The notes under the pieces were generated by a model, which saw only the letters and a list, made by a program, of their open reading frames with translations, was not told where the DNA came from and did not search any database. Shown here piece after piece: positions 7,703 to 36,068 of a stretch of DNA of 64,000 nt. Position numbers and translations under genes: made by a program. The stretch spans positions 2,976,001 through 3,040,000 of the forward strand of contig NZ_CP026309.1 of NCBI RefSeq assembly GCF_002906575.1, written 5' to 3'. How positions within the stretch are numbered: the first letter of the stretch is position 1; the number at the start of each line of letters is the position of its first letter. The DNA is from Salinigranum rubrum. Its GTDB lineage: Archaea > Halobacteriota > Halobacteria > Halobacteriales > Haloferacaceae.

Positions 7703-8851
7703 TCAGTTCGGCGGCTGTTCGACCGAGCGACGGGCCGCGTCCCGGTCGTCCTCCCCGGCGGTGCGAAGGAGTTCGACGATGCGCTCGCCCGCTCGTCCGT
7801 CGCCGAACAGGTCGGTCGCGCCGACCATCTCGTCGCGTTCGTCGCGGTAGACGGCCCGGAGCCGGTCACCGACGGTTTCGGGCGTGACGAGTTCGTTCAC
7901 CCCGGCGTCGACGGTTTCGGGGCGCTCCGTGTTCGGTCGGACCGTGAGACACGGGACCTCCAGAATCGACGCCTCCTCTTGAACCCCGCCCGAGTCCGTC
8001 ACGACGACGCGGGCGCTCGAGAGGAGTTCGAGGAAGTCGAGGTAGTCGAGCGGGTCGATCAGTGCGAGCGACCCGGAAGCGTCGAACCCGATACGGTCGA
8101 CTGCGGCCTGGGTCCGCGGGTGCGCCGGCAGGACGACCGGGAACGACACGTCGTCGAGTGCGGTGAGAACCGTCCGGAGTCGGTCGTCGTCGTCGGTGTT
8201 ACGAGCGCGGTGGACCGTCGCGGCGACGTACTCGCCGGGGGTGAGGTCGAGGCGGTCGAGGACGTCCGACTGCTCGTGGGCGACCTTGCTGTGTTCGCGG
8301 CACGCGTCGACGACGGTGTTCCCCGTCACGTGGACGTTCTCGGTGATTCCCTCCTCGGTGAGGTTCTGTGCGGCTTCCATCGTCGGTGCGAACAGGAAGT
8401 CGGCGACCCGGTCGGCGACGACCCGGTTCACTTCCTCGGGCATCTCGTCGTCGAAGCTCCGGATGCCCGCCTCGACGTGGCCGAAGTCGGCGTCGAGCTT
8501 GGACACGGCGAGCGCGGCGGAGAGGACCGCGTTCGTGTCCCCCTGGGCGAGCACGACGTCCGGCGACGTCGCTTCGACGTCGGCTTCGAGCGCGACGAGG
8601 GCCTCACCGGTCTGTTCGGCCTGGCTCCCGCTTCCGACGCCGAGCCGGACGTCGGGCTCCGGCAGGCCCAGCGTCCGGATGAAGCTCCCGCTCAACTCGG
8701 TGTCGTAGTGCTGGCCGGTGTGGACGAACCGCAGTTCCATCGAGTCCGTCTCGCGAATCGCCTTGATGACCGGTGCCATCTTGATCAGCTCCGGTCTCGT
8801 GCCGATTACGACTGTCACCAGCGACGACGCTGTGGAGGACGTAGCTCCCAT
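7703..8851 (-). CDS. wecB: UDP-N-acetylglucosamine 2-epimerase (non-hydrolysing)
   Basis: The enzyme converts UDP-GlcNAc to UDP-ManNAc. Family motifs appear in order: 'IGTRPELIKMAPVI' at the start, 'HTGQHYD', 'LAQGDTNAVLSAALA', 'HVEAGIRSFDDEMPEEVNR', 'VTGNTVVDA', 'AATVHRARN' and 'VVTDSGGVQEEA'. The last segment carries the conserved Asp-Ser-Gly-Gly of the UDP site. Length (382 aa) is normal. ATG 8851 is preferred over GTG 8854 because the TAACTAA box on the minus strand begins exactly 33 nt upstream. It is divergent from the wecC-like gene at 8959, whose enzyme would use its product, so the pair should supply UDP-ManNAcA. Confidence 0.93.
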   Translation of the reverse strand: MGATSSTASSLVTVVIGTRPELIKMAPVIKAIRETDSMELRFVHTGQHYDTELSGSFIRTLGLPEPDVRLGVGSGSQAEQTGEALVALEADVEATSPDVVLAQGDTNAVLSAALAVSKLDADFGHVEAGIRSFDDEMPEEVNRVVADRVADFLFAPTMEAAQNLTEEGITENVHVTGNTVVDACREHSKVAHEQSDVLDRLDLTPGEYVAATVHRARNTDDDDRLRTVLTALDDVSFPVVLPAHPRTQAAVDRIGFDASGSLALIDPLDYLDFLELLSSARVVVTDSGGVQEEASILEVPCLTVRPNTERPETVDAGVNELVTPETVGDRLRAVYRDERDEMVGATDLFGDGRAGERIVELLRTAGEDDRDAARRSVEQPPN

Positions 8852-8876
8852 CACCGCTTCAATGATGGGTAACGCT

Positions 8877-8958: not shown

Positions 8959-10202
8959 ATGAGTAGCGTGTGCGTCCACGGCCTCGGCTACATCGGCCTC
9001 CCGACGGCAGCGATGTTGTCGAACTACGACTTCGACGTGATCGGATACGACGCCTCTTCGGAGGTCGTCGAACGACTGGACCAGGGACAGGTCGACTTCG
9101 AGGAGCCGGAGCTCCGGGCGTTCGTCGAGCGGTCGCTCGCGTCCGGTGACCTGACGGTGAGCGCCGAGGCGGTCCCCGCGGACTACCACATCATCTGCGT
9201 TCCCACGCCGTTGACCGACGAGCGGTCCGCCGACCTGGAGTACGTCCGCGCCGCGGGCCGGAACGTGGCCGAAGAGCTCCGACGGGGCGACACGGTCATC
9301 CTCGAATCGACCGTCCCCCGGGGACGACGGTCGACGTCCTCAGGCCGGTTCTGGAGGAGAGCGGGCTGACCGTCGGCGAAGGGTTTTCGCTCGCGCACTG
9401 CCCGGAGACCGTCCTCCCGGGGAACATCGTGCAGGAACTGAAGACGAACGACCGCGTCATCGGCAGCGCGAACGGCGGCGAACCCACGTCGGCGGTGCGG
9501 CTGTACGAGTCGTTCGTCGAGGGGGAGATACACACGACGGACGCGACGACGGCGGAGTTCGTCAAACTGATGCAGAACACGTTCCGGGACGTGAACATCG
9601 CGTTCGCGAACGAGGTCGCCCGGCGGTGTTACGAGGTCGGCATCGACTCCCGGGAGACGATCGAACTCGCCAACACCCACCCGCGGGTCGACGTCCTCCA
9701 GCCCGGTCCGGGAGTGGGCGGCCACTGCCTGCCCATCGACCCGTACTTCCTCGCCGACAGCTCCGAGGTCGACACGGACAGTCTCGTCCTCTTAGCGCGT
9801 GAGGTGAACGACTCGATGCGGACGCACGTCACCGACCTGCTCGAAGACGCGCTCGGCGACGTCGACGGGCGGTCCGTCGCCGTCCTCGGCGTCGCGTACA
9901 AGGGCAACGTCGGGGATATCCGCGAGAGTCCCGGCCTCGCGCTCGCCGACCATCTGACGTCGAACGGCGTCGACGTCACGCTGACCGACGCGCACGTGGA
10001 CGACGAACACCTCCGGCTCGAACCGTTCGAGGAGGCGGTGGCCGGCGCGGACGCGGCGGTCATCGTGACCGACCACGACGAGTACGTCGAACTGACCCCC
10101 TCGGACCTCGACTCGCTCGCCACCCCGGTCGTCGTCGACACCAAGGGCGTCCTCGACCGGGAGCGGTTCAGACGGGCCGGCTTCGAGGTCTACCGAGTCT
10201 GA
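8959..10202 (+). pseudogene. wecC: UDP-N-acetyl-D-mannosamine dehydrogenase, one frameshift (probably intact in reality)
   Basis: The enzyme oxidises UDP-ManNAc to UDP-ManNAcA in two NAD-dependent steps. The first frame covers the Rossmann domain (CVHGLGYIGLPTAAM) to 'TVILESTVP'. The second continues from the segment encoding 'ETVLPGNIVQELK' through 'GPGVGGHCLPIDPYFL', which has the catalytic Cys, and 'GVAYKGNVGDIRESP' to the normal C-terminus. The frames join if one C is added to the C5 run at 9315-9319, which restores VPPGTTVDVL, a standard family phrase. All catalytic parts are present. The frame break therefore looks like a consensus error or a very recent mutation. ATG 8959 is used because the earlier GTG at 8945 meets a stop. 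Confidence 0.85.
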
Positions 10203-10744: not shown

Positions 10745-11802
10745 CAGGTGCCTCACCGGGCGTGTGGGTCGATCTGGCGAGCCCCTCGCACCCGTTCTTC
10801 TTCGCGAGCATCGTCGACGGACTCGACGGGCATCCGGTCACCACCACGGTCCGTGACAAGACCGAGACGGTGTCGCTGACCGAAGAGGTCGGGCTGGACT
10901 ACACGGTCGTCGGCAAGGACTTCGATACGGCGGCGTTGCGTCCGCTGGGGCTGCCGCTGCGGACGGTCAAACTGGCGACGCAGGCACCCGACTGCGCCGT
11001 CTCGCTCTCGGCGCGGAACGGGATGTGTACGGTCGCCTCGAAACTGCACGGTATTCGCTCGATCCACTTCACCGACAACGACATCACGACCCACCGGGAC
11101 ACGCCGGTCACCGAGGACGTGTTCAACTGGCTGCGGGCGCGCTCGGACCACCACGTCGTTCCCGCCGCGTTCGAGACGAGCGAACTGACCGACTGGGGCG
11201 CGACTCCGGAGACGATACACACGTACGACGGGTACATGGAGGACGTGTACGTCGCGGAGTTCACGCCCGACCCGACGTTCGTCGACCAACTCCCGTTCGA
11301 CGCCGACGAGTATCTCGTCGTTCGACCGGAGGCGATGACGGCCGCCTACGTCGACATCGAGCAGTCGCTCGTGCCGGCGCTGCTCGAACGCGCCCGGAAA
11401 CACGACATCGGCGTCGTCTACCTCCCGCGCAACCGGGCGAACGACGCGTCGTTCGCGAACCCGTACGACTCGGCGGAGGTGTACGTGCCCGACGAACCGC
11501 TCGACGGGCTCCAACTCGCGTGGCACGCCCGGTGTGTCATGACCGGTTCCGGAACGATGGCCCGGGAGGCGGCGGCCATGCGGAAACCCGCCGTCTCGTT
11601 CTTCCCCCACACGATGCTCTCGGTCGATCAGGAACTGGTCGAGGCGGGTCGCGTCTTCCACTCGCGCGACCCCGACGAGATTTTCGACTACGTGACCGGT
11701 CTCGACGGCGACGCGGTCGAACCCGGACTCGGGTCGGCGATGGACGTCAGAGACGAAGTCGTCGGCGTCGTCGAGGGACTCATCCCGGACGAGGGGCCGT
11801 GA
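10741..11802 (+). CDS. DUF354 family protein (GT-B-like, polysaccharide locus)
   Basis: The 353-aa protein opens 'VWVDLASPSHPFFFASIVDGL', matching the DUF354 start pattern (W-D--N-PH--FF). Later features are 'LARKHDIGVVYLPRN'-like Rossmann strands and 'RCVMTGSGTMAREAAAMRKPAVSFFPH', a GT-B style nucleotide-sugar loop resembling WecB or MurG. DUF354 proteins sit in archaeal and bacterial polysaccharide clusters and are thought to be glycosyltransferase- or epimerase-like; the reaction is not established. ATG 10741 fits the family N-terminus and the ATGA overlap with the leader ORF. The stop overlaps a GTG that opens a 31-codon ORF leading to the toroid gene. Confidence 0.8.
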   Translation: MTGASPGVWVDLASPSHPFFFASIVDGLDGHPVTTTVRDKTETVSLTEEVGLDYTVVGKDFDTAALRPLGLPLRTVKLATQAPDCAVSLSARNGMCTVASKLHGIRSIHFTDNDITTHRDTPVTEDVFNWLRARSDHHVVPAAFETSELTDWGATPETIHTYDGYMEDVYVAEFTPDPTFVDQLPFDADEYLVVRPEAMTAAYVDIEQSLVPALLERARKHDIGVVYLPRNRANDASFANPYDSAEVYVPDEPLDGLQLAWHARCVMTGSGTMAREAAAMRKPAVSFFPHTMLSVDQELVEAGRVFHSRDPDEIFDYVTGLDGDAVEPGLGSAMDVRDEVVGVVEGLIPDEGP

Positions 11803-11894
11803 CCACGACCCGTCGACCGCGGAGGGGGCGAGCCGAGAGCGGGGGGGACCCGGAGGCGAACCGTCCGCCGACCGACCACGACGACACACGATGA
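11799..11894 (+). CDS. Short bridging ORF between DUF354 and toroid genes (31 aa, hypothetical)
   Basis: GTG 11799 overlaps the TGA of the DUF354 gene (GTGA), and its own TGA overlaps ATG 11891 (ATGA). The peptide (VTTTRRPRRGRAESGG...) is basic then acidic, with no recognisable domain. This double overlap could keep ribosomes moving along the operon; chance in GC-rich spacer cannot be excluded. Confidence 0.3.
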   Translation: MTTTRRPRRGRAESGGDPEANRPPTDHDDTR

Positions 11895-13114
11895 CGAACC
11901 GAGACCGACCACCGCGGACACGAGGACACGGGACGTCGAGCGATGGCCCGACCGACGAGTTCCTGCTCGGACTGCTCGAATCGACGCTCGCGTACGCGCG
12001 GGAGCGCGACTACACGGGGTACGACTACTTCGACGGGATGAGCAGTCGGCTCCTCCGCTGGGCCCCGGTGGACAACAAGTGGGTGAACATCGCCGTCCAA
12101 GAGAGCATCAAGCGGGCGCCCGTCAACGTCCGGCCGCTGTTTCTCGTCGAGCAGCGGCAGAACTTCAAAGGGAGCGCGCTGTTCGCGATGGCGAACGCGA
12201 CCGCACACGACCTGACGGGGAACCCGCGCTACCGGGAGGAGGCGACGGCCCTGGCGGACTGGTTGCTCGAACACAGCAACGACGACTACGCCGGCTTCTG
12301 CGGGGGACACACACACGAGATGCAACTCCTCGACGAGCGCCGTCCCGCGAACACGCCGAACGTCATCCCGACGTCGTACGCCGTGAAGGCGCTTCTCAGA
12401 CTCGGCGCGGACCGGTACGTCGACGCCGCTCGGACCGCGGCGGCCTTCCTCGAAGAGGACCTCGACTACACCGAACTGGAGACGGGGGCCCGAATCAAGT
12501 ACCAGCCCCAGTACAGCGGCGAGTTCTACACGCTCAACGGGGGCGCAATCGGGGCGCGGATGCTCCTCGACCTCTACGACCGGACGGGCGAGGAACGGCT
12601 CCACGAGCAGGCGACGGCGCTGTTCGACCACCTGACGACGAAGCAACACGCCATCGGCGGGTGGACGTATCGAGACCCGCCGTCGGCGTCGCATCTCTCG
12701 ATGGACAACCACCACAACGGGTTCATCGTCGAGTCGTTCCTCCACTACCGGGAGGTCACCGGCTCGGACCGGTACGAGGAGACGCTCGACGACGCGCTCG
12801 CGTTCTACCGCGAGCGACTGTTCGACCCCAACGGGGCACCGAACTGGGACGAGGAGAGCAGCTATCCGAAGGACATCCACGCGGCGACCCAGGGGATACT
12901 CGTGTTTACGAAGGCGGGCGACCGCGAGTTCGCCCGGGAGATCATCGACTGGGTCCTCGGCGCGCTGTACGCGGGCGACGGACGGTTCTACTACCAGCGA
13001 CGTCGGTTCTACACGAAGCGGTTCACGCTGATGCGCTGGTGTCAGGCCTGGATGGCGTACGCCCTCGCCGAGCATCTTTCGACGTCCGCGGAAATTTCAG
13101 TGGCAAATAATTAA
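11891..13114 (+). CDS. Six-hairpin (alpha/alpha toroid) glycosidase-like protein, copy 1
   Basis: The 407-aa cytoplasmic protein is built of repeated helical hairpins with aromatic, acidic loops. Examples are 'YARERDYTGYDYFDGMSSRLL', 'GFCGGHTHEM', 'NVIPTSYAVKALLRL', 'MDNHHNGFIVESFLHY' and 'TLMRWCQAWMAYALAEHL'. This pattern resembles (alpha/alpha)6 toroid enzymes such as glucuronyl hydrolases, epimerases and terpenoid-cyclase-like folds. No signal peptide is present, so an internal sugar or lipid-linked intermediate may be the substrate. It shares the ARERDY-G-D--DG---SPL signature, the 'NFKGSALFA/NPKGVALFA' segment and the C-terminal R-QAWM motif with the gene at 14205. Function is not established. 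It follows DUF354 and precedes a phosphatase-fold gene. Confidence 0.7.
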   Translation: MTNRDRPPRTRGHGTSSDGPTDEFLLGLLESTLAYARERDYTGYDYFDGMSSRLLRWAPVDNKWVNIAVQESIKRAPVNVRPLFLVEQRQNFKGSALFAMANATAHDLTGNPRYREEATALADWLLEHSNDDYAGFCGGHTHEMQLLDERRPANTPNVIPTSYAVKALLRLGADRYVDAARTAAAFLEEDLDYTELETGARIKYQPQYSGEFYTLNGGAIGARMLLDLYDRTGEERLHEQATALFDHLTTKQHAIGGWTYRDPPSASHLSMDNHHNGFIVESFLHYREVTGSDRYEETLDDALAFYRERLFDPNGAPNWDEESSYPKDIHAATQGILVFTKAGDREFAREIIDWVLGALYAGDGRFYYQRRRFYTKRFTLMRWCQAWMAYALAEHLSTSAEISVANN

Positions 13115-13149
13115 TTGGGTTGAGTATACTCCCTCTAGCCGGGGGGAGT

Positions 13150-14124
13150 ATGCCGGACCTCAATGTCATACTCAACGTCATAAGGCGAGAGTGGAACGAC
13201 CCGACGTGGTGGCGACGGGTGACCGTACCGTTCGTCCTCAGACAGCTCCTCGTTCGCCCGTACTTTCGGTACGTGTACGACGACGGCGAGGGGGTCGATA
13301 TCGCGGCCGAGGACTGGGATAACCTCCTCATCCTCGACGCGTGTCGGTACGACATGTTCTCGGAGCTCAACACCGTGTCCGGGCGGCTGGAGGAACGGCG
13401 GTCGCGGGGCTCGAACACCGCGGAGTTCCTCCGCCGGAACTTCGCGGGGGAGACGTTCGGGGACATCGTGTACGTGACTGCCAACCCGCAGGTCGACATC
13501 AGGCTCGACGACCCGTTCCACGCGACCGTCTCGGTCTGGGAGACGGCCTGGGACGAGGACCTCGACACGGTTCGACCGGAGGCCGTCGTCGACGCGGCCA
13601 GGGGCACCCAGGAGCGCTACCCGAACAAGCGACTCGTCGTTCACTTCGTCCAGCCCCACTACCCGTTCATCGAGGCGGCGAGCGAGAACCGGATCGGGGC
13701 GCAGGCGGGGATGCAGCTCTCGCGCCGAATGGCGAACGACGAGACCGCCATCGCGGACCACGACCACGTGTGGGACCGACTCAAGAAGGGGGAGGTGACC
13801 CTCGACGCGGTGCGCGAGGCGTACTGGGACAACCTGGCGGTCACGCTCCCACACGTCGAGAGACTGCTCGACGACCTCGTCGGTCGGACGGTCGTGACGT
13901 CGGACCACGGGAACCTCCTCGGCGAGCGACCGAGTCCGTGCCCGCTCCCGGTGCGACTGTACGGCCACCCCGGGGGCGTGTACGCGGACGCTCTGGTCCG
14001 CGTCCCGTGGCTTGTCGTCGACGGGAACGGGCGAAAGAAGGTCACGACGGGGAGGACTACAGCCACAGACGGGACCGTCTCCTCCGACGCCGACTCCCGG
14101 CTGCGAGCGCTCGGCTACGGTTGA
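13150..14124 (+). CDS. Alkaline-phosphatase-superfamily (sulfatase-like) protein
   Basis: This 324-aa protein has the metal-binding elements of the superfamily: 'DNLLILDACRYDMF' near residue 60, 'VVHFVQPHYPFI' near 175 and 'VVTSDHGNLLGERPSP' near 255. The 'GSNTAEFLRRNF' segment probably carries a Thr or Ser nucleophile rather than the Cys of formylglycine sulfatases, so phosphate-ester or phospho-sugar chemistry is as likely as sulfate hydrolysis. The protein ends SRLRALGYG, a tail seen in three other island proteins. It is paralogous to 35154-36068. ATG 13150 follows a GGGGGAG stretch and an AT-rich TAATTAATTGG box that overlaps the end of the toroid gene. Confidence 0.78.
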   Translation: MPDLNVILNVIRREWNDPTWWRRVTVPFVLRQLLVRPYFRYVYDDGEGVDIAAEDWDNLLILDACRYDMFSELNTVSGRLEERRSRGSNTAEFLRRNFAGETFGDIVYVTANPQVDIRLDDPFHATVSVWETAWDEDLDTVRPEAVVDAARGTQERYPNKRLVVHFVQPHYPFIEAASENRIGAQAGMQLSRRMANDETAIADHDHVWDRLKKGEVTLDAVREAYWDNLAVTLPHVERLLDDLVGRTVVTSDHGNLLGERPSPCPLPVRLYGHPGGVYADALVRVPWLVVDGNGRKKVTTGRTTATDGTVSSDADSRLRALGYG

Positions 14125-14160
14125 TTCGAATCGGAGGCCGAGACGGTCTCGACGAGCGGC

Positions 14161-14181
14161 TTATACGGGCGTTAACGAAAA
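14161..14181 (+). promoter_or_regulatory. Promoter of toroid copy 2, CGGG plus TAACGAA type
   Basis: TTATACGGGCGTTAACGAAA. The TAACGAA core begins at 14173, 32 nt before GTG 14205. The box is nearly superimposable on the one at 17063. Confidence 0.6.
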
Positions 14182-14204
14182 CGCTCGGGCCGGTCGACAC
14201 GAAC

Positions 14205-15446
14205 GTGCCACCGAGCGACATCGCTCTCCAGGACGGGCAGGTCCGGCGGACCCTCGACGACGCGCTTTCGTGGGCCAGAGAACGCGACTACGCCGGCTGG
14301 GATCCGTACGACGGACTCAACAGCCCGCTGTTCTCCCCGGTCGCGCGGAACTGGTTCCTCAGACTCGTCTGCATGCACGGGGTCAACAAGTTCCCGGTCA
14401 ACCTCCGCCCGCTTCTCGGCGTTCCGAAGCAGCGCAACCCGAAGGGCGTCGCACTGTTCGCCGCGGCGTATCTCGACCGGTACGCCGTCGACGGCGACGA
14501 ATCCGACCGCGAGAACGCCGAGCGTCTGCTGGAGTGGCTCGAGCGCAATCAGTCGTCGGCGTTCGACGCTCCCTGCTGGGGGTACAACTTCGACTGGCAG
14601 AACGCCGAGAAGTTCTTCTTACCCGCGTACAAGCCCTCCATCGTCGTCACGGTGTTCGTCGGGGAGTCGTTCCTCAAGCATTACCGACTCACCGGCGACG
14701 AGGAGTCGCTGGCGACCGCACGCGACGTCTGCTCGTTCATCACGTCGGAGATCAACGAGGTCCCCGTCGACGGACACACGGCGTACGCGTACACGCCGTA
14801 CGACGACTACGTGGTGGTGAACGCCAACGCGCTCGCCGCGGGACTCCTCGCCGCCGTCGGGGCGGAGACGGGCGACGACGCGTTCGTCACGCGGGCGGAC
14901 GAACTCGTCGACCTCGTCGTCGACGTCCAAGACGAGAAGGGCGCGTGGTACTACTCGGTCCCGGGCGACGACTCGCCGCTCTCGCACGACAACTTCCACA
15001 CCGGGTTCGTCCTCGAATCGCTCTCGGAGTATCTGACCGTCCGCGACAGCGACCCCGCGGAGCGAGCGTATCAGCGCGGGCTGGATTTTTTCCGGGACAA
15101 CCTCTTCGACGCCGACGGTGCGCCCCGCTTCGAACACGACACCGCGCTCCCGCGGGACATCCACGGCGCGGCCCAGGCGATTCGAACGCTCGCGCTGGAC
15201 GGCGACCCGAAGAGCACGCGGCTCGGCCGCCGCGTCCTCTCGTGGACGCTCGAGAACATGCTCGACGACGAGGGCTACTTCTACCGCCGTCGCGGTCGGT
15301 TCTGGGACGACACGACGCCGTACATGCGGTGGAACCAGGCGTGGATGTGCTACGGGCTCGGGGCGTATCTACGGCACGTCGTCGCGGGTGAGGCGGTCTC
15401 GGAGCGGTCCGACGGGGTTCGGAGCCAGACCGCACCGCGTGGGTGA
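14205..15446 (+). CDS. Six-hairpin (alpha/alpha toroid) glycosidase-like protein, copy 2
   Basis: The 413-aa paralogue of the 11891 gene shares 'WARERDYAGWDPYDGLNSPLF', 'NPKGVALFAAAYL', 'WGYNFDWQNAEKFF', 'HDNFHTGFVLESLSEYL' and 'YMRWNQAWMCYGLGAYL'. No ATG lies in the homologous N-terminal region. GTG 14205 is chosen because a TATA box lies 32 nt upstream and homology begins soon after. Two toroid proteins flanking a phosphatase-fold protein suggest that the three act together. Substrate and reaction are unknown. A Ser/Arg-rich tail follows the conserved domain. Confidence 0.7.
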   Translation: MPPSDIALQDGQVRRTLDDALSWARERDYAGWDPYDGLNSPLFSPVARNWFLRLVCMHGVNKFPVNLRPLLGVPKQRNPKGVALFAAAYLDRYAVDGDESDRENAERLLEWLERNQSSAFDAPCWGYNFDWQNAEKFFLPAYKPSIVVTVFVGESFLKHYRLTGDEESLATARDVCSFITSEINEVPVDGHTAYAYTPYDDYVVVNANALAAGLLAAVGAETGDDAFVTRADELVDLVVDVQDEKGAWYYSVPGDDSPLSHDNFHTGFVLESLSEYLTVRDSDPAERAYQRGLDFFRDNLFDADGAPRFEHDTALPRDIHGAAQAIRTLALDGDPKSTRLGRRVLSWTLENMLDDEGYFYRRRGRFWDDTTPYMRWNQAWMCYGLGAYLRHVVAGEAVSERSDGVRSQTAPRG

Positions 15447-15477
15447 GCGAGGAGTACCGGACACTCGATTCGAGTCG

Positions 15478-15549
15478 ACGCGGGTCGGTCCTGAGAGACG
15501 GACGCGGGTCGGTCCTGAGAGACGGACGCGGGTCGGTCCTGAGAGACGG
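15478..15549. repeat. 24-bp tandem repeat, three perfect copies
   Basis: Three head-to-tail copies of a 24-base unit beginning ACGCGGGTCGGTCCTGAGAG start at 15478, 15502 and 15526. They lie between the convergent ends of the toroid and sulfatase-like genes, outside both coding regions. Confidence 0.9.
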
Positions 15550-15607
15550 ACGCGGTCCGTCGGCGGAGGCGGGAACAGCGAACGCCCGAACGAGTCGCCG
15601 CGAACCG

Positions 15608-16838
15608 CTACAACCGCTCGCTCTCGACGAGGTCGGCCGCGGCCGCCATGACCTCTCGACGGTGTTCGGTCGAGCGGTCCCACGCGTCGGCGAGCGCCGA
15701 GCAGGTCGCCCGCAGGTCGGCGAGGTCCGCCTCGACCTGCGTTCCCCCCGAACGCGGTACGTCTGCTCGCCGTCGGCCCGGCGAACGTACTTCCAGTCGG
15801 GGCCGCGAACGACCCGCTCGGGGCCGGCGAGTCGCGCCGTGACGTACGGTTCGGTGTGGTCGCGCGGGTCGAACTCCGCCGAAGTCGCCGCGTCGACCAG
15901 CAGGTCCGGCAGCGAACAGAGCGAGAAGGGCTCGGAGACCCTGTCGCGCCCGGCGTTTGCGAGGACCAGCGGGACGCGGAGCGTCTTCTCGTGGGCGTTC
16001 CCGTGACCGTACATGCCGCCCTCGCCGAACACCTCCCCGTGGTCGGCGTGGAACCCGAACACGGTGTCCTCGGTGAGTCGGTCCGAGAGGTGACCGACGA
16101 ACTCGTCGGTGTAGCGAACGGTGCTGCGATACGCTTCGGCGAGCACGTCGCTGAAGAACGAGTCGAAGGGGCCGGGACGGTCGGCGTACAGCCAGGCGTT
16201 CGCGGCGTAGACAAGCAGTTGCGACTGCGTGCGGTGGGCCGCGGGGGGAGGTACGGCATGTGCGGGTCGACGACGAACACCCAGCAGAAGTACGGCTCCG
16301 ACGCGTCCGCGAGCCACGTCTCGATGCGGTCGCTCATCGCCTCCCAGGTCATGAACATGTCCTGGCCCTGCCACCAGTTCACCATCCGATTCAGCGTGCC
16401 GCCGCGCTCGACCGTCGTTCCGACGTCCCCCGACGTCTCACTGGGGGTGTCGCCGTCCCCGTCGATGAAGTCGACGAAGTGGTCGAAGAGGTCCTCGTCG
16501 AGGAAGTACCGCGACGTCCACGGGTTCGCGGTGAACACCGCCGTCTCGTACCCTCGGCGGGACAGCCGTTCGGGAAGGGTGTCCTCGGCGGCGAAGTGCT
16601 GACCGACGAGGTCCCGTACCGAGGACGCGGTGGGGCGTGCGTGGGGGTACCGCCCCGTGAGAAACGAGGACATCGACGCGCGGGTCGCCCCGGCGTTCGC
16701 CATCGCGGTCTCGAAGGCGACACCGTCGGCTGCGAGACGGTCGAGGTTCGGTGTCAGGTTCTCGCCGTCGAGGTGCCCGCAGTGGTCTGCCCGCAGGCTG
16801 TCGGCGGTCACGAGGACGATGTTTCGTCGGTCGTCCAT
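15608..16838 (-). pseudogene. Sulfatase-like alkaline-phosphatase-superfamily protein, two frameshifts
   Basis: From ATG 16838 the frame encodes 'NIVLVTADSLRADHCG', a typical sulfatase N-terminus with metal-binding Asp, then 'GATRASMSSFLTGRYPHA' and 'VVDPHMPYLPP'. It then breaks. The next frame carries 'FGFHADHGEVFGEGGMYGHG' and 'VPLVLANAG', and the third runs to TAG at 15608. Adding one base to the G6 run at 16243-16248 and one to the C6 run at 15744-15749 gives a single protein of about 410 aa. Thr takes the place of the Cys/Ser of the sulfatase CxPxR motif, so a phosphoryl-transfer role is possible. The next gene is divergent and encodes the small RHH-like protein. Confidence 0.78.
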
Positions 16839-17062
16839 TCGTCTCGAACCGAGGGGACTACGGGATTTGGTTAGTCGGCAGTTAGACCGACGTCGTCGTT
16901 CGACTGTGCCGACGTCATCCGCTGCTGTCGCCTCGTGAGGAACCGCCTCGAATCCGTGCGACGGAGTCGGAGTGTTCGGACGCCCCACGTGCATCGGGCG
17001 GACCCCACAGCGCGAGCGGGGCGTGCAGCGCGTTGCCGCCCCGTCGCGGGTCACGCCCGGGC

Positions 17063-17084
17063 TTACACGGGGCATAACGAAACC
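17063..17084 (+). promoter_or_regulatory. Promoter of the RHH-like gene, CGGG plus TAACGAA type
   Basis: TTACACGGGGCATAACGAAA; the TAACGAA core begins at 17075, 33 nt before GTG 17108. The homology with 14161 continues into the following bases (ACCGCTC). Confidence 0.6.
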
Positions 17085-17107
17085 GCTCCGGACGGAACGA
17101 CGCGGAC

Positions 17108-17344
17108 GTGACACGAACGGACGCGACAGCACCGTCCGAGACGGACGTCGTTCGAATTCCCCGACACCTCCTCGAACAGGTCGACGGGCGACTCCCGCAC
17201 TCGGAGTTCGAGACGCGAGACGAGTACGTCGCGTTCGTCCTCCGTGAGGTGCTCGCTCGCGTCGAGCCCACCGACGACGGGGAGACGGTCGACGAGTCGG
17301 AGGTCAGATCACGGCTCGAATCGCTCGGCTATCTCGACTCCTGA
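17108..17344 (+). CDS. Small ribbon-helix-helix-like protein with sulfatase-type C-terminal tail
   Basis: The 78-aa acidic protein has a beta-strand (VVRIPRHLLEQVDGRL) and a helix (FETRDEYVAFVLREVLARV) resembling CopG/RHH DNA-binding proteins. A C-terminal 'SRLESLGYLDS' matches the endings of the phosphatase-superfamily proteins at 13150, 25467 and 35154. It is divergent from the sulfatase-like gene at 15608. It may regulate that gene or bind the enzyme; neither is shown. GTG 17108 is supported by the promoter 33 nt upstream. Confidence 0.65.
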   Translation: MTRTDATAPSETDVVRIPRHLLEQVDGRLPHSEFETRDEYVAFVLREVLARVEPTDDGETVDESEVRSRLESLGYLDS

Positions 17345-18840: not shown

Positions 18841-20826
18841 GTGTGGCCGACTAGGCACTCTATCGACCTCCCGGGGATGCGGTCCGAGCGAGTGGACGAG
18901 ACGACCACGCTCACGGCCGGTGCAGAGCGACGGGTCAAACTCGCGCTGACGCTCGGCTTCGTGTCGCTCCTCGGACTCGTTCTCACGCTGCGGGCGGCAC
19001 CGGCGAACGGATTCGAGGTGTCGATATACGGTTCGACGCCGCTCGTCTTCTGGATTCTCTGGTTCGGCGTGATGGCGCTGTCGTTCACGCTGTTGCTGTA
19101 CGTCCCCACCGAGAGCACGCTCTGGAGTTACGCACTGCTCCTGGCAGGGGTGACCGCTTTCACGATTCCGGCGCTCCCGTTGCTCCGCGGCTACGAGTTC
19201 TACGGCCTCGCCGACGCGCTCGTCCATCTCGGGTACACGCGGTCTATCGCCGCCGGTGAGTTCTCCCCGGACGCGCTCGTCTACCCGGCGAGTCACCTCG
19301 TCGCCGTCTTCGCGAGTAAACTCGGCGCGGCAGGGGTCCCGCATTCGATGATGCGGACCGAACTGCTGTTCGTCGTCATCTACTTCCTCGGCATCCCGTT
19401 GCTCATCAGGAAGCTGGTGAACGACCGGCGTGCCGTCGCGCTGGCGGCGTTCGCGGCGTTCTTGCTCATGCCGGTCAACCTGGTCAGTACGTACCTCTCG
19501 TTTCATCCGTTCACGATGGCGACCCTCTACTTCCCGGTCGTGCTCTACGCGGTCTTCGCGCACATGAAGACCGAGCCCCAGACGGGAGTCGGCCGGTTCC
19601 TCTCGATGACGAGTCTCACACTGGTTCTCACCGGACTCTGTCTCATTTCTCTCCACCCGCAGGCGGCGCTGAACGCACTCATCCTCTTCACGGTGATGGC
19701 CGGACTACAGTTCTGGGCCCGTCTCCGGGACTGGAACCACCCGCTGACCGAGGCTCGAACGGTCTACAGCGAGGTGATCCTCCTGAACGCCGGATTCCTC
19801 GCGTGGAACCTCAACCACTGGCGGCTGTTCGTCGCCGCGAACAACACCGTCGAAGCTATCGTCAACACGCAACAGGGCGAGGCACAGACCGGAGAGGTCG
19901 TCGCCAATCAGACGGCTTCGCTGGGCGACATCGGAGTCAGTCCCGCCGAGATATTCCTGAAGATGTTCTCCGTCGAGGCGATGTTCATCGGGCTGGCGAG
20001 CCTGCTCGTTCTCCGATACCTCCTGCGGTACCGCAGTGGTTCCGAGACGGAGCTCCCGACCACGGAACTCGCGATTACGACGCTCACTGTCGGCGGAATC
20101 ACCCTGATCCCGTTCTTCGTCCTGCAGTTCCTCGGCGCGGTCTCGGCGTACTTCTTCAGACACATCGGCTTCGGAATGGTGCTCATCACGCTGTTCGGCG
20201 CGCTCGCGCTCTACTCGCTCATCTCCGTCGCCCAGGAGAACGGCATCGGCAGATACGTCCGTCCGGTAGCAGTCGTCGCCGCGGTGCTCGTGCTCGGCCT
20301 GTCCGTCGTCACCCTGTTCGGCTCGCCGTTCATCTACAAGTACACCATGCACGGGGACCAACAGCAGATGGAGGGGTGGACGACTTCGTTCGAGAAACAG
20401 GTGCCGGACGGTCCGGACGGGGGCCTGAGCGGTGAGGTGTGGTACGGCTCGACCCGGACAGCGACGATCAGGTACAAGCAGGCGGATCAGTCGAAACCCG
20501 GGACGAGCTGGTATCCGGGGGTGGTCCGACCGTTCCCGATTCCCACGGGGACGGTCGAGTCCGAGGAGATGGACGATTTGGTTCAACACTACCAGACGGC
20601 CGACGAACAGGTGGTCCGTCGTGATCACTACTTCCCCGTCTCCACCATGACCCGCGAACGTGCGGTGATATCGTACCGGGAGTTGCGGTACAGCGAGGCG
20701 AGTTTCGAGTCGCTCCACCACCAGCCCCGCGTCCACCGCATCCAGTCGAACGGCGGGTTCACCGTCTACTACGTCGACCTCCCCGACTCCGAGCCGACCG
20801 AGAGCGAGCCCGTTATCGGGTCGTGA
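18841..20826 (+). CDS. Large polytopic membrane protein, GT-C or polymerase-like
   Basis: The protein (661 aa) has about a dozen hydrophobic helices between residues 35 and 500, then a soluble C-terminal domain of about 150 aa ('YGSTRTATIRYKQ', 'FHHQPRVHRIQSNGGFTVYYVDLP'-like). The first large loop contains 'FYGLADALVHLGYTRSI', with an acidic-His arrangement like the first loop of GT-C glycosyltransferases and polymerases. With the flippase at 32383 and DUF1616 next door, a role in glycan polymerisation or transfer on the outer membrane face is reasonable but unproven. GTG 18841 fits the promoter 33 nt upstream; ATG 18877 is the alternative. Confidence 0.65.
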   Translation: MWPTRHSIDLPGMRSERVDETTTLTAGAERRVKLALTLGFVSLLGLVLTLRAAPANGFEVSIYGSTPLVFWILWFGVMALSFTLLLYVPTESTLWSYALLLAGVTAFTIPALPLLRGYEFYGLADALVHLGYTRSIAAGEFSPDALVYPASHLVAVFASKLGAAGVPHSMMRTELLFVVIYFLGIPLLIRKLVNDRRAVALAAFAAFLLMPVNLVSTYLSFHPFTMATLYFPVVLYAVFAHMKTEPQTGVGRFLSMTSLTLVLTGLCLISLHPQAALNALILFTVMAGLQFWARLRDWNHPLTEARTVYSEVILLNAGFLAWNLNHWRLFVAANNTVEAIVNTQQGEAQTGEVVANQTASLGDIGVSPAEIFLKMFSVEAMFIGLASLLVLRYLLRYRSGSETELPTTELAITTLTVGGITLIPFFVLQFLGAVSAYFFRHIGFGMVLITLFGALALYSLISVAQENGIGRYVRPVAVVAAVLVLGLSVVTLFGSPFIYKYTMHGDQQQMEGWTTSFEKQVPDGPDGGLSGEVWYGSTRTATIRYKQADQSKPGTSWYPGVVRPFPIPTGTVESEEMDDLVQHYQTADEQVVRRDHYFPVSTMTRERAVISYRELRYSEASFESLHHQPRVHRIQSNGGFTVYYVDLPDSEPTESEPVIGS

Positions 20827-24161: not shown

Positions 24162-25321
24162 TCAGGCGGATTCGTACGCCTCGACGAGTTGCGTGACGAC
24201 CCGTTCCCAAGAGTAGCGCGTCTCGATGAGCGAGCGGTTTCGACGGGCCATCTCCTGTACCGTCGTCGGCGAGGCGACGAGCGATTCGAGGGCCGCCGCG
24301 AGCGCGTCGTCGTCACCGGGTTCGACCAACCGGCCCGACCGGTCGTCGACGACCTCGGGGATCGAACCGACGGTCGTCGCCACCGCCGCGTTGCCGCCGG
24401 CCATCCCCTCCAAGAGCGCAATCGGGAGGCCCTCGGCGTACGACGGGAGAACGTAGACGGAGCCGCGTTCGAGAAGCGCCCGCTTTCGCTCCTCGGAGAC
24501 GTATCCGTGGTAGGTCACGCGCTGATGTTCCTCAGCCAGCGACTCGACCAGGTCGGAGAGCGGCCCGTCGCCGGCGATGTCGACCCGGAGCGAACCCCGG
24601 TCGTCGGCGAGGACGGAACCGAGCGCGGTGACGAGTTCGCGGACGCCCTTCCGTTCGATGAGGTTCGAGACGAACACCACCCGCGGCGTCGAGGGGTACT
24701 GGGGTCGTACTCGGCCGGGTCGACCGCGTTCGGAACCACGCGGATCTTCGTCGGGTCGGCGCGTCTGGACACGACGCGCTTCCAGTAGGTCGAGAGGACG
24801 ATGACCTCGGTCGCCGCGTCGAACACCGCCGACTGAACCCGTCCGACGAGCGGTGACGCGTCGGCGACGAACTCGTCGAAACTCGACCCGTGGACGTGGA
24901 CGAAGACGGGCCGTCGCCAGACGTACGTCCCGAAGAGGACGTAGAAACTCCCACGGTAGAAGGCGAAGCGGTAGGAGGTGTGGACGTGAACGACGTCCGG
25001 TCGACGGCGAAGGGTGAACCGGAGCGCCGACAGGAGCGTCCAGAGCAGCGTCTCCACGTAGAGGAGCGCTCCGGTCGACCGCCGTTCGGGAACCGTCGTG
25101 TGTGTCCGGGTTCGGTAGTCGTCGGGGAGCCGGGTTACCTGGTCGTCGATGTACTGTGCGATACCACCGACGCCGCTCGGACCCACGACGAGGACCGCTT
25201 TCTCCGTCGGCTCGGGCGAGTGCGAACGCTCGTCGGACGCCTCGCCGACCGGTGACGCACCCGCGTCCGCCGGGGCCGAGTCGCCGTCCACGAGCGTCGA
25301 CCTCGAATCGCTGCCCTGCAC
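24162..25321 (-). pseudogene. Family 4 glycosyltransferase, one frameshift (probably intact in reality)
   Basis: The first frame (GTG 25321) gives a 45-residue acidic extension, then 'VLVVGPSGVGGIAQYIDDQV', 'PDVVHVHTSYRFAFYRGSFY', 'PVFVHVHGSSFDEFV' and 'IRVVPNAVDPAEYDP'. The second gives 'VFVSNLIERKGVRELVTAL', 'VDIAGDGPLSDLVESL', 'YVLPSYAEGLPIALLEGMAGG' with the E-x7-E donor motif, and a normal C-terminus. One extra C in either G4 run (plus strand) within 24693-24704 joins them; placing it at 24701-24704 gives YDPQYPSTPRVVFVSNL. GTG 25321 is supported by a TATA box 32 nt upstream. It should be a cytoplasmic GT-B enzyme of glycan assembly. Confidence 0.82.
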
Positions 25322-35153: not shown

Positions 35154-36068
35154 TCACTCGACGTAGCCGAGTTGTCGCAGGTGCTCGCTGACGGCGTCGT
35201 CGTCGGGTGACTCGTCCGTGCTCGTCTCGGGACGCTCCGCGGTCACTCGCTTGCGCGAGTCGCCCTCGACGACGAGCCACGGGACCTCGACGAGATTCGG
35301 CACCCACGTCGAGTACGGGTGCCCCCACTCGGTGATGGGGATCGGATACACGCGTTCGCCGAGCAGGTTGCCGTGGTCGGACGTCACGACCGTCCGTCCG
35401 TCGAGTTCGTCGACGAGTTCCTGGACGTGCGGCAACGCCCGAAGGAGGTTGTCACGGTAGGCTTCCCACAGCGTCTCGCGGGGAATCGACAGTTCGTCGC
35501 GGAAGATCCGGTTCCAGAAGTCCGGCGTGTCCGGGTCGAACGCGTCGTCGATGCTGATCGGCGAGTCGATGAACGGGTAGTGCGGCTGGATGTAGTGGAC
35601 GACGAGCCGCTTGTTCGGGTGTTGCTCGGCGGCCGCGGTGGCGTACGCCGTCGTCGTCTCCGGGAGGACCGTGTGGTTCTCGTCGTCCCACGCCTCGTCT
35701 TCGGTCCAGATGTCCCACGTCCGGTGGAACTCGACGTCGAACTCGTCGCGGTGGTTGGCGAGTTGGCCGTTCGCCGTGACGTAGACGGTGTCGTGGATAC
35801 GCCGGGAGTGGAAGTTCCCGCGGATGAACTCCGTCGTCGTCGACCCCTTCGACGTGACCTTCTCGAGGTCGCCCGAGACGGTGTTGTGCTCTTCGAACAG
35901 GTCGTACCGGCAGCCGTCGAGGATGACGAGGTTGTCCCAGTCACGGTCGAAAACGTCGATGCCCTCTTGATAGGTGTCGTGTGTGTCGAACCACGTGAAG
36001 TAGCGCCGGTTCGCGTCGCGGAGGTACGGTTTGATCGTCCGCTTGGCGTCGGCGACCGAACTGAGCAT
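35154..36068 (-). CDS. Alkaline-phosphatase-superfamily protein, paralogue of the 13150 gene
   Basis: The 304-aa protein has 'DWDNLVILDGCRYDLFEEHNTVSG', 'KGSTTTEFIRGNF' with candidate Thr/Ser nucleophile, 'LVVHYIQPHYPFID' and 'VVTSDHGNLLGERVYPIP'. The DHG---GE metal motif is intact. It ends EHLRQLGYVE, the tail noted at other island proteins. It shares long blocks with 13150-14124 (YPNKRLVVHF-QPHYPFI versus HPNKRLVVHYIQPHYPFI). No signal peptide is present. A minus-strand TTACGTTTA box begins about 31 nt before ATG 36068. Confidence 0.8.
   Translation of the reverse strand: MLSSVADAKRTIKPYLRDANRRYFTWFDTHDTYQEGIDVFDRDWDNLVILDGCRYDLFEEHNTVSGDLEKVTSKGSTTTEFIRGNFHSRRIHDTVYVTANGQLANHRDEFDVEFHRTWDIWTEDEAWDDENHTVLPETTTAYATAAAEQHPNKRLVVHYIQPHYPFIDSPISIDDAFDPDTPDFWNRIFRDELSIPRETLWEAYRDNLLRALPHVQELVDELDGRTVVTSDHGNLLGERVYPIPITEWGHPYSTWVPNLVEVPWLVVEGDSRKRVTAERPETSTDESPDDDAVSEHLRQLGYVE

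Follow-up and report, generated by a model that had tools for sequence, protein, structure and literature searches.

Paired alpha/alpha-toroid proteins of a haloarchaeal glycan locus as candidate hexosaminuronyl C5-epimerases

Introduction

L-Gulosaminuronic acid (L-GulNAcA) is the C5 epimer of N-acetyl-D-mannosaminuronic acid (D-ManNAcA). The Vibrio polysaccharide (VPS) of Vibrio cholerae contains L-GulNAcA, which its authors propose to arise by C5 inversion of D-ManNAcA (PMC3901696); VpsB was only guessed to be an epimerase in a 2015 review (PMC4432689), and vpsJ was given as being of "unknown function" in a 2016 paper (PMC5109742). Gulosaminuronic acid is also a constituent of the cell wall of Halococcus morrhuae, at 110 nmol/mg, together with glycine (100 nmol/mg) and sulfate (1470 nmol/mg) (PMC4187196). 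In the open-access literature, we found no epimerase assigned to the L-GulNAcA of VPS and no genes assigned to the Halococcus wall polymer. Here, we analyze a 64-kb window (the whole stretch that was examined) of the 4.97-Mb genome of the haloarchaeon Salinigranum rubrum (contig NZ_CP026309.1, positions 2,976,001 to 3,040,000), which encodes two alpha/alpha-toroid proteins, toroid 1 and toroid 2 (Table 1), among genes for N-acetylmannosamine (ManNAc) or its uronic acid.

The other described system that resembles this locus is the aglB island of Halobacterium salinarum. Deletion experiments and heterologous expression in Haloferax volcanii identified its alkaline phosphatase (AP)-superfamily proteins Agl30 and Agl31 as sulfotransferases (PMC11980604). 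Agl32 is described as an all-helical C5-epimerase, the structural neighbors of which are cellobiose 2-epimerase, mannose isomerase, and N-acetylglucosamine (GlcNAc) 2-epimerase (PMC13308652), as for the toroids of the window.

We propose that the toroids are a family of cytoplasmic hexosaminuronyl C5-epimerases in surface-glycan assembly, to which AP-fold sulfotransferases have been added in haloarchaea; we put the probability of this at roughly 0.45. Somewhat more tentatively, the VpsJ-type toroid of Bacteria and Archaea would be the missing C5-epimerase that converts D-ManNAcA to L-GulNAcA, acting on a lipid-linked glycan right after transfer by WecG or by an unrelated DUF354 protein, a step that would be common to the biofilm matrix of Vibrio and the sulfated wall of Halococcus. 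The proposal is based on fold, family membership, conserved gene neighbors, genome co-occurrence, and conserved polar residues.

Toroid genes in vps-type operons and in Halococcus

A protein search of plasmid records recovered members of the toroid family in Vibrio sp. THAF191d and Pseudoalteromonas sp. THAF3, to which toroid 2 is 32–33% identical (E < 1e-59) and toroid 1 is 30–32% identical (E < 1e-49). Both genes lie in vps-type operons that encode WecB, WecC, and VpsD-family and VpsF-family proteins (all above NCBIfam cut-offs), followed by a GT4 gene, the toroid, and a WecG-type transferase; in Pseudoalteromonas sp. THAF3, one acyltransferase gene separates the toroid (11971–13179 in L222) from WecG. 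We take the V. cholerae gene order to be vpsI (a transferase), vpsJ, vpsK, by which the toroid of the vps-type operons apparently falls at the position of vpsJ.

The genus Halococcus, which holds H. thailandensis, was recognized via a genome (G069) with an identical WecC. All 10 sampled genomes of this genus encode a toroid and WecB, and nine encode WecC. The H. thailandensis island (locus L003) has the order toroid 1, WecB, WecC, DUF354, toroid 2, with a sulfatase-like gene further on, on the opposite strand; unlike in the window, no cluster C6 AP-superfamily gene separates the two toroids. The Halococcus relative of the window WecC scores best, among named sugar dehydrogenases, against UDP-ManNAc dehydrogenase models, yet below their cut-offs.

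Genomic neighbors of haloarchaeal toroids

Among 392 sampled haloarchaeal genomes of the order, 114 have a toroid match at E 1e-10. WecB is encoded by 112 of these, vs. 127 of the 278 genomes without a toroid, and the two toroid genomes without WecB have a completeness of 81% and 86%; within the family to which the window belongs, the corresponding counts are 26/26 and 20/68. Among the matches listed, WecC of the type found in L003 accompanies a toroid 2-type copy in 18 of 22 genomes, vs. 23 of the 92 other toroid genomes.

Gene neighborhoods were compared across 44 haloarchaeal loci that hold 61 toroids and 734 called genes. DUF354 genes (43 of the 734) occur in 32 of the loci and adjoin 32 of the toroids; WecG was not found in any of the 44. 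The arrangement WecC-type dehydrogenase–DUF354–toroid–AP, or its mirror image, is complete in three close loci (L112, L113, and L117), and three more (L114, L115, and L116) lack the dehydrogenase but keep DUF354–toroid–AP. Plasmid pHME505 of Haloferax mediterranei (L223) carries a toroid 1 gene and a DUF354 gene. In six loci, the toroid is accompanied by genes of clusters C19 and C25, which in the one locus tested against NCBIfam (L119) resemble UDP-GlcNAc 3-dehydrogenase and sugar aminotransferases. This is reminiscent of the known route to 2,3-diacetamido-2,3-dideoxymannuronic acid (ManNAc3NAcA), again a manno-uronate. The conserved unit is WecB–WecC–DUF354–toroid(–AP), i.e., genes for N-acetylmannosamine or N-acetylmannosaminuronic acid.

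These comparisons redraw the module described in the first-pass annotation, which had been made from the DNA sequence alone. Its central observation, that two paralogous toroids flank an AP-superfamily protein, is borne out: the three open reading frames are confirmed, all on the plus strand, and the toroids are 32% identical over 377 residues (E 1e-59). The borders it gave (11891–17344) leave out the conserved upstream partners WecB, WecC, and DUF354. Conservation of gene order, which had been offered as a check, holds for WecB, WecC, DUF354, and the toroid, and for toroid–AP in the closest relatives; the toroid–AP–toroid trio recurs in none of the 44 loci, and toroid 2 as a member of such a fixed trio was rejected. 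The small ribbon-helix-helix (RHH)-like protein exists as an open reading frame, and was rejected as a module partner, with no close relative beside toroids in the 44 loci. A sulfatase-like gene likewise exists as described, except that it is on the minus strand and has two frame breaks.

Genomic neighbors of bacterial toroids

The bacterial set comprises the best 80 of 396 relatives in named genomes, 76 of them bacterial. A WecG/TagA-type transferase (PF03808) is encoded within five genes of the toroid in 48 of the 76 loci, and is the next gene downstream in 41 of these; WecB lies within five genes in 31. Within this transferase family, WecG transfers ManNAcA and TagA transfers ManNAc. DUF354 is near the toroid in 19 of the 76 loci, which include those of Bacteroidetes, Calditrichaceae, Zixibacteria, Lentisphaerae, and Deltaproteobacteria, and never together with WecG (0/76; Fisher P 2e-11, a value that overstates independence, as P values do here, the loci being phylogenetically related). 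Among the 59 loci with sufficiently long flanks on either side, 57 have one or the other. This mutual exclusion beside bacterial toroids suggests a transferase function for DUF354, which looks like a stand-in for WecG as a transferase of ManNAc or ManNAcA, hereafter ManNAc(A).

A further gene often adjoins the bacterial toroid (35 of the 76 loci): a two-domain oxidoreductase that combines a zinc dehydrogenase with a GFO/IDH/MocA domain (e.g., 7522–9774 in L046). It is present in 10 of the 14 tested bacterial genomes without a WecC match.

Fold and conserved residues

The AlphaFold2 models of toroid 1 (54 sequences) and toroid 2 (84 sequences) have predicted local distance difference test (pLDDT) scores of 91.9 and 92.1, respectively, and a predicted TM-score (pTM) of 0.92 each. 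Both are confident alpha/alpha-toroids, as the first-pass annotation had anticipated. For toroid 2, the best Foldseek match in the Protein Data Bank (PDB) is a cellobiose 2-epimerase (E 7.7e-10), and VIA-align gives Z 33.0 for 3wkf (root-mean-square deviation 3.4 over 343 residues) and Z 32.6 for a GH76 mannanase. Toroid 1 has similar fold neighbors (top Z 33.0), and the other neighbors listed are terpene-cyclase folds and a few further toroids. The glucuronyl C5-epimerases GlcE and DSepi1 are not among the best 50 fold-match rows, which excludes nothing. Fold likeness alone shows no function, and searches of Pfam, NCBIfam, and PDB sequences with the toroids yielded no hit above a curated cut-off, nor did the PDB offer an informative relative.

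Across 84 family members, 21 alignment columns are invariant, including the polar residues D36, N66, N78, K80, Y196, N206, Q242, Y250, D262, H265, D318, and R375 (toroid 2 numbering). All of these, together with R68, are retained by toroids 1 and 2 as well as by their Vibrio and Pseudoalteromonas relatives. One loop separates the clades: toroid 2 has CWGYNFD there, where toroid 1 has CGG.. plus H and E. In a FastTree phylogeny of 141 members (midpoint root), the haloarchaeal toroids form two clades (49 and 14 sequences, support 1.0 each), and the bacterial toroids, including those of the vps-type operons, are separate from them, apart from one bacterial sequence that groups with the archaeal ones.

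In a simple hydropathy scan, an N-terminal hydrophobic stretch was found in none of the 76 bacterial and none of the 63 haloarchaeal toroids. Thus, the toroids probably work in the cytoplasm, judging from their sequences. The AP-superfamily protein between the window toroids also has no such stretch, in keeping with the absence of obvious signal peptides noted in the first-pass annotation.

Some public names for toroid genes in the plasmid records look wrong: "antibiotic ABC transporter permease," "prenyltransferase/squalene oxidase repeat-containing protein," and "aspartate-semialdehyde dehydrogenase."

AP-superfamily proteins and proposed sulfation

The AP-superfamily protein between the window toroids belongs to a family in which D63, R66, D68, S85, D252, H253, and H273 are invariant in 30 of 30 aligned sequences. 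The C/S-x-P-x-R formylglycine motif was not found in this family, in which S85 is present in 30/30 sequences without the P/R pattern; nor was CxPxR found in the minus-strand sulfatase-like gene, which has GATRAS at that place. Relatives of the former protein occur in aglB islands, including three proteins of locus L153 (45, 42, and 38% identity) and one of L185 (40%). The window protein is a probable sulfotransferase by analogy with Agl30 and Agl31. A third AP-superfamily protein, VNG1063H, had no effect on sulfation in that study (PMC11980604), and hence not every AP-superfamily protein is a sulfotransferase.

The sulfatase-fold genes and the glycoside hydrolase-like fold of the toroids could also be taken for a catabolic set, by which sulfatases and toroid hydrolases degrade sulfated glycans. 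We regard this as very improbable, given that the proteins have no signal-like stretches, that neither AP gene has CxPxR, and that the neighbors are biosynthetic throughout; a secreted catabolic system was dropped on the first two of these grounds.

Two observations concern the wider AP superfamily. Locus L153 (G240) has four AP-superfamily genes of the same family clustered beside aglB, perhaps several sulfotransferases of one glycan. A C-terminal LxxLGY tail is common to small RHH-like proteins (that of the window and cluster A21) and 82 members of six AP-superfamily clusters, as if it were a shared docking piece; its occurrences include the window proteins at 13150–14124, 17108–17344, and 35154–36068 and loci L112–L192. 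No AP relatives were found in viral contigs.

Proposed pathway

In the proposed pathway, WecB and WecC would generate UDP-D-ManNAcA, from which DUF354 (in the window) or a WecG-type transferase (in bacteria) would add D-ManNAc(A), in the cytoplasm, to a lipid-linked glycan that is being extended. The toroid would then invert C5 of the added residue to give L-GulNAcA, and sulfation by one or more AP-superfamily proteins, acting as Agl30/Agl31-like sulfotransferases, would precede export. Toroid 2 represents the branch nearest to the vps toroid; toroid 1 is its archaeal paralogue and may serve a second manno-uronate (ManNAc3NAcA, or ManNAcA in a different position). The surface-glycan modification system of the first-pass annotation survives here in its intracellular location, its epimerase-like toroid, and its handling of sulfo groups; for the glycosidase step that it offered as an option, there is no evidence.

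Should the proposal hold, one gene family would link two GulNAcA polymers, namely VPS (the structure of which dates from 2014) and the Halococcus wall. DUF354 would gain a function, that of a ManNAc(A) transferase taking the place of WecG, and the presence in glycan islands of genes annotated as "antibiotic ABC transporter permease" or as "aspartate-semialdehyde dehydrogenase" would be explained. Furthermore, C5-epimerization of uronates would have arisen at least one more time, in the toroid fold.

Evidence against the proposal and alternative functions

Several results weigh against C5-epimerization of a uronate by the toroids. L003-type WecC is encoded by only 41 of the 114 haloarchaeal genomes with a toroid (65 of the 278 without). 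Among 50 bacterial genomes tested (for 50 of the 76 loci), WecC exceeds the cut-off in only 16, and 14 have no such dehydrogenase at E 1e-60. Given the many toroid genomes without a close WecC, the family may extend beyond uronyl epimerases to enzymes that modify ManNAc, and the substrate of some members may be ManNAc and not a uronate. DUF354 is not in view at 12 of the 44 haloarchaeal loci and does not adjoin 29 of the 61 toroids. Within the window, WecC, the sulfatase-like gene, and a GT4 gene are frame-broken; the pathway may be off in this strain, or the assembly may be wrong. Regarding the link to known chemistry, the toroid apparently occupies the vpsJ position, as judged by gene order in two relatives of V. 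cholerae, and the Halococcus link, which sets the wall of H. morrhuae beside a genus-level genome sample, may hold by analogy. The fold neighbors of toroid 2 include hydrolases, with GH88 and GH105 enzymes at Z ~28. The C5-epimerization itself, the acceptor, the order of steps, and sulfation are what we infer from the observations above. Finally, a toroid family linked to aglB, used as a stand-in for Agl32 (see below), is matched by the window family with a best hhalign probability of 25% (E 0.26 in another comparison).

In an alternative view, the toroid would act on a lipid-linked ManNAc-type residue otherwise than as a C5-epimerase: as another isomerase, as an editing hydrolase or lyase, or as a non-catalytic partner of the GT26/DUF354 transferase. 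We consider this possible, albeit doubtful. The tightest link of the toroid is to WecB and WecG/DUF354 and not to WecC, and hydrolases of the same fold (GH76, GH88, and GH105) are structurally close. Against this, both lineages with known chemistry have GulNAcA polymers, the density of invariant polar residues argues against a non-catalytic toroid, and a cytoplasmic glycosidase would have no clear use in a biosynthetic operon.

The toroids might instead be Agl32-like glucuronyl C5-epimerases that convert glucuronic acid (GlcA) to iduronic acid (IdoA) in an N-glycan, as would suit the all-helical fold and nearest PDB neighbors that they have in common with Agl32 (PMC13308652) and the AP proteins of the same family that flank an aglB-linked toroid in one island. 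The stand-in for Agl32 in our comparison was an aglB-linked toroid family, represented by the minus-strand gene at 14868–16001 of L177, relatives of which lie beside aglB in several genomes (G235, G122, G226, G112, and others). Using an hhalign profile of 62 haloarchaeal sequences for the window family (window included) gave the result stated above; with hmmsearch, the best match to the aglB-linked toroid has E 4e-7, to one member. In family f7, the ~20-kb surroundings of aglB were inspected for 20 genomes (one flank, in L160, spans only 3 kb) and contain no window-family toroid, and the neighbors of the window toroids make ManNAcA, not GlcA. A role in N-glycan epimerization of GlcA is unlikely on these grounds; by the stand-in test, the window toroids apparently lie outside the sequence family of Agl32, although they perhaps work like it. 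A published primer for VNG1056C, used to locate Hbt. salinarum, matched none of the 392 genomes. No toroid match was found in a sample of 13 genomes of the genus taken in seeking Hbt. salinarum, and cluster A48, considered as an Agl32 candidate, was rejected as not toroid-like by sequence and by comparison.

Other features of the window

The features of the locus are given in Table 1. The Halococcus relative of the large island protein (18841–20826) has no Pfam name. The window has five frame breaks: at 9320 in WecC, at 15745 and 16243 in the sulfatase-like gene, and at 24680 and 28202 in the GT4 gene and a cluster C7 protein. Three of the five coincide with homopolymeric C or G runs, five or six bases long. 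Frame breaks in the glycan island may reflect sequencing error, decay, or phase variation, which are indistinguishable here.

Table 1. Coordinates (in the window) and properties of the toroid locus and related genes.
Feature	Position	Strand	Remarks
WecB, UDP-GlcNAc 2-epimerase (forms UDP-ManNAc)	7703–8854	-	PF02350 E 1.1e-96; TIGR00236 above cut-off
WecC-type UDP-ManNAc dehydrogenase	8959–10202	+	Two frames, split at ~9320; fragments share 62 and 55% identity with a single intact relative
DUF354 protein, proposed ManNAc(A) transferase	10762–11802	+	PF04007 E 4.3e-27
Toroid 1, archaeal family clade	11891–13114	+	AlphaFold2 pLDDT 91.9
AP-superfamily protein, proposed sulfotransferase	13150–14124	+	Reading frame opens at 13120, probable start ATG at 13150; PF00884 E 2.9e-4, below cut-off
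Toroid 2, nearest to vps-operon toroid	~14205–15446	+	Start codon uncertain; AlphaFold2 pLDDT 92.1
Sulfatase-like AP-superfamily gene	16838 to ~15600	-	PF00884 E 7.5e-21 (residues 5–196); frameshifts at ~16243 and ~15745
Small RHH-like protein with LxxLGY tail	17108–17344	+	Judged to be outside the module
Large protein of the same conserved island	18841–20826	+	Cluster C8; relatives in 20 of 45 clustered loci, window counted
Second AP-superfamily protein	35154–36068	-	Same family (cluster C6) as 13150–14124

Comparison with known systems

The statement in the first-pass annotation that no described pathway has this gene set is half true: the locus has a partial likeness to Agl30/Agl31/Agl32 and a closer one to the vps-type operon. 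In fold, the toroids resemble the AGE superfamily (cellobiose 2-epimerase and GlcNAc 2-epimerase), sharing an (alpha/alpha)6 toroid with Z ~33 over some 340 residues; in sequence, they differ from it, with ~10–15% identity in the top rows and no Pfam match at E up to 1.

In the Agl30/Agl31/Agl32 set, as in that of the window, an all-helical toroid and AP-superfamily proteins occur together in a glycan island, and the AP family of the window is shared with aglB islands (38–45% identity). The two differ in that the window toroids belong to another family (by the stand-in test), lie outside an aglB island, and have neighbors that make ManNAcA.

The archaeal set departs from the vps operon in that DUF354 stands where the operon has WecG, the toroid occurs as two paralogues, and AP-superfamily proteins are present. 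VPS, for its part, is decorated with glycine and acetyl groups, with no sulfate reported in the available excerpt. Common to the Vibrio vps operon (VpsA, VpsB, VpsJ, and VpsK) and the window are WecB, WecC, a (proposed) transferase of ManNAc(A), and toroids that belong to one family and share its conserved polar residues.

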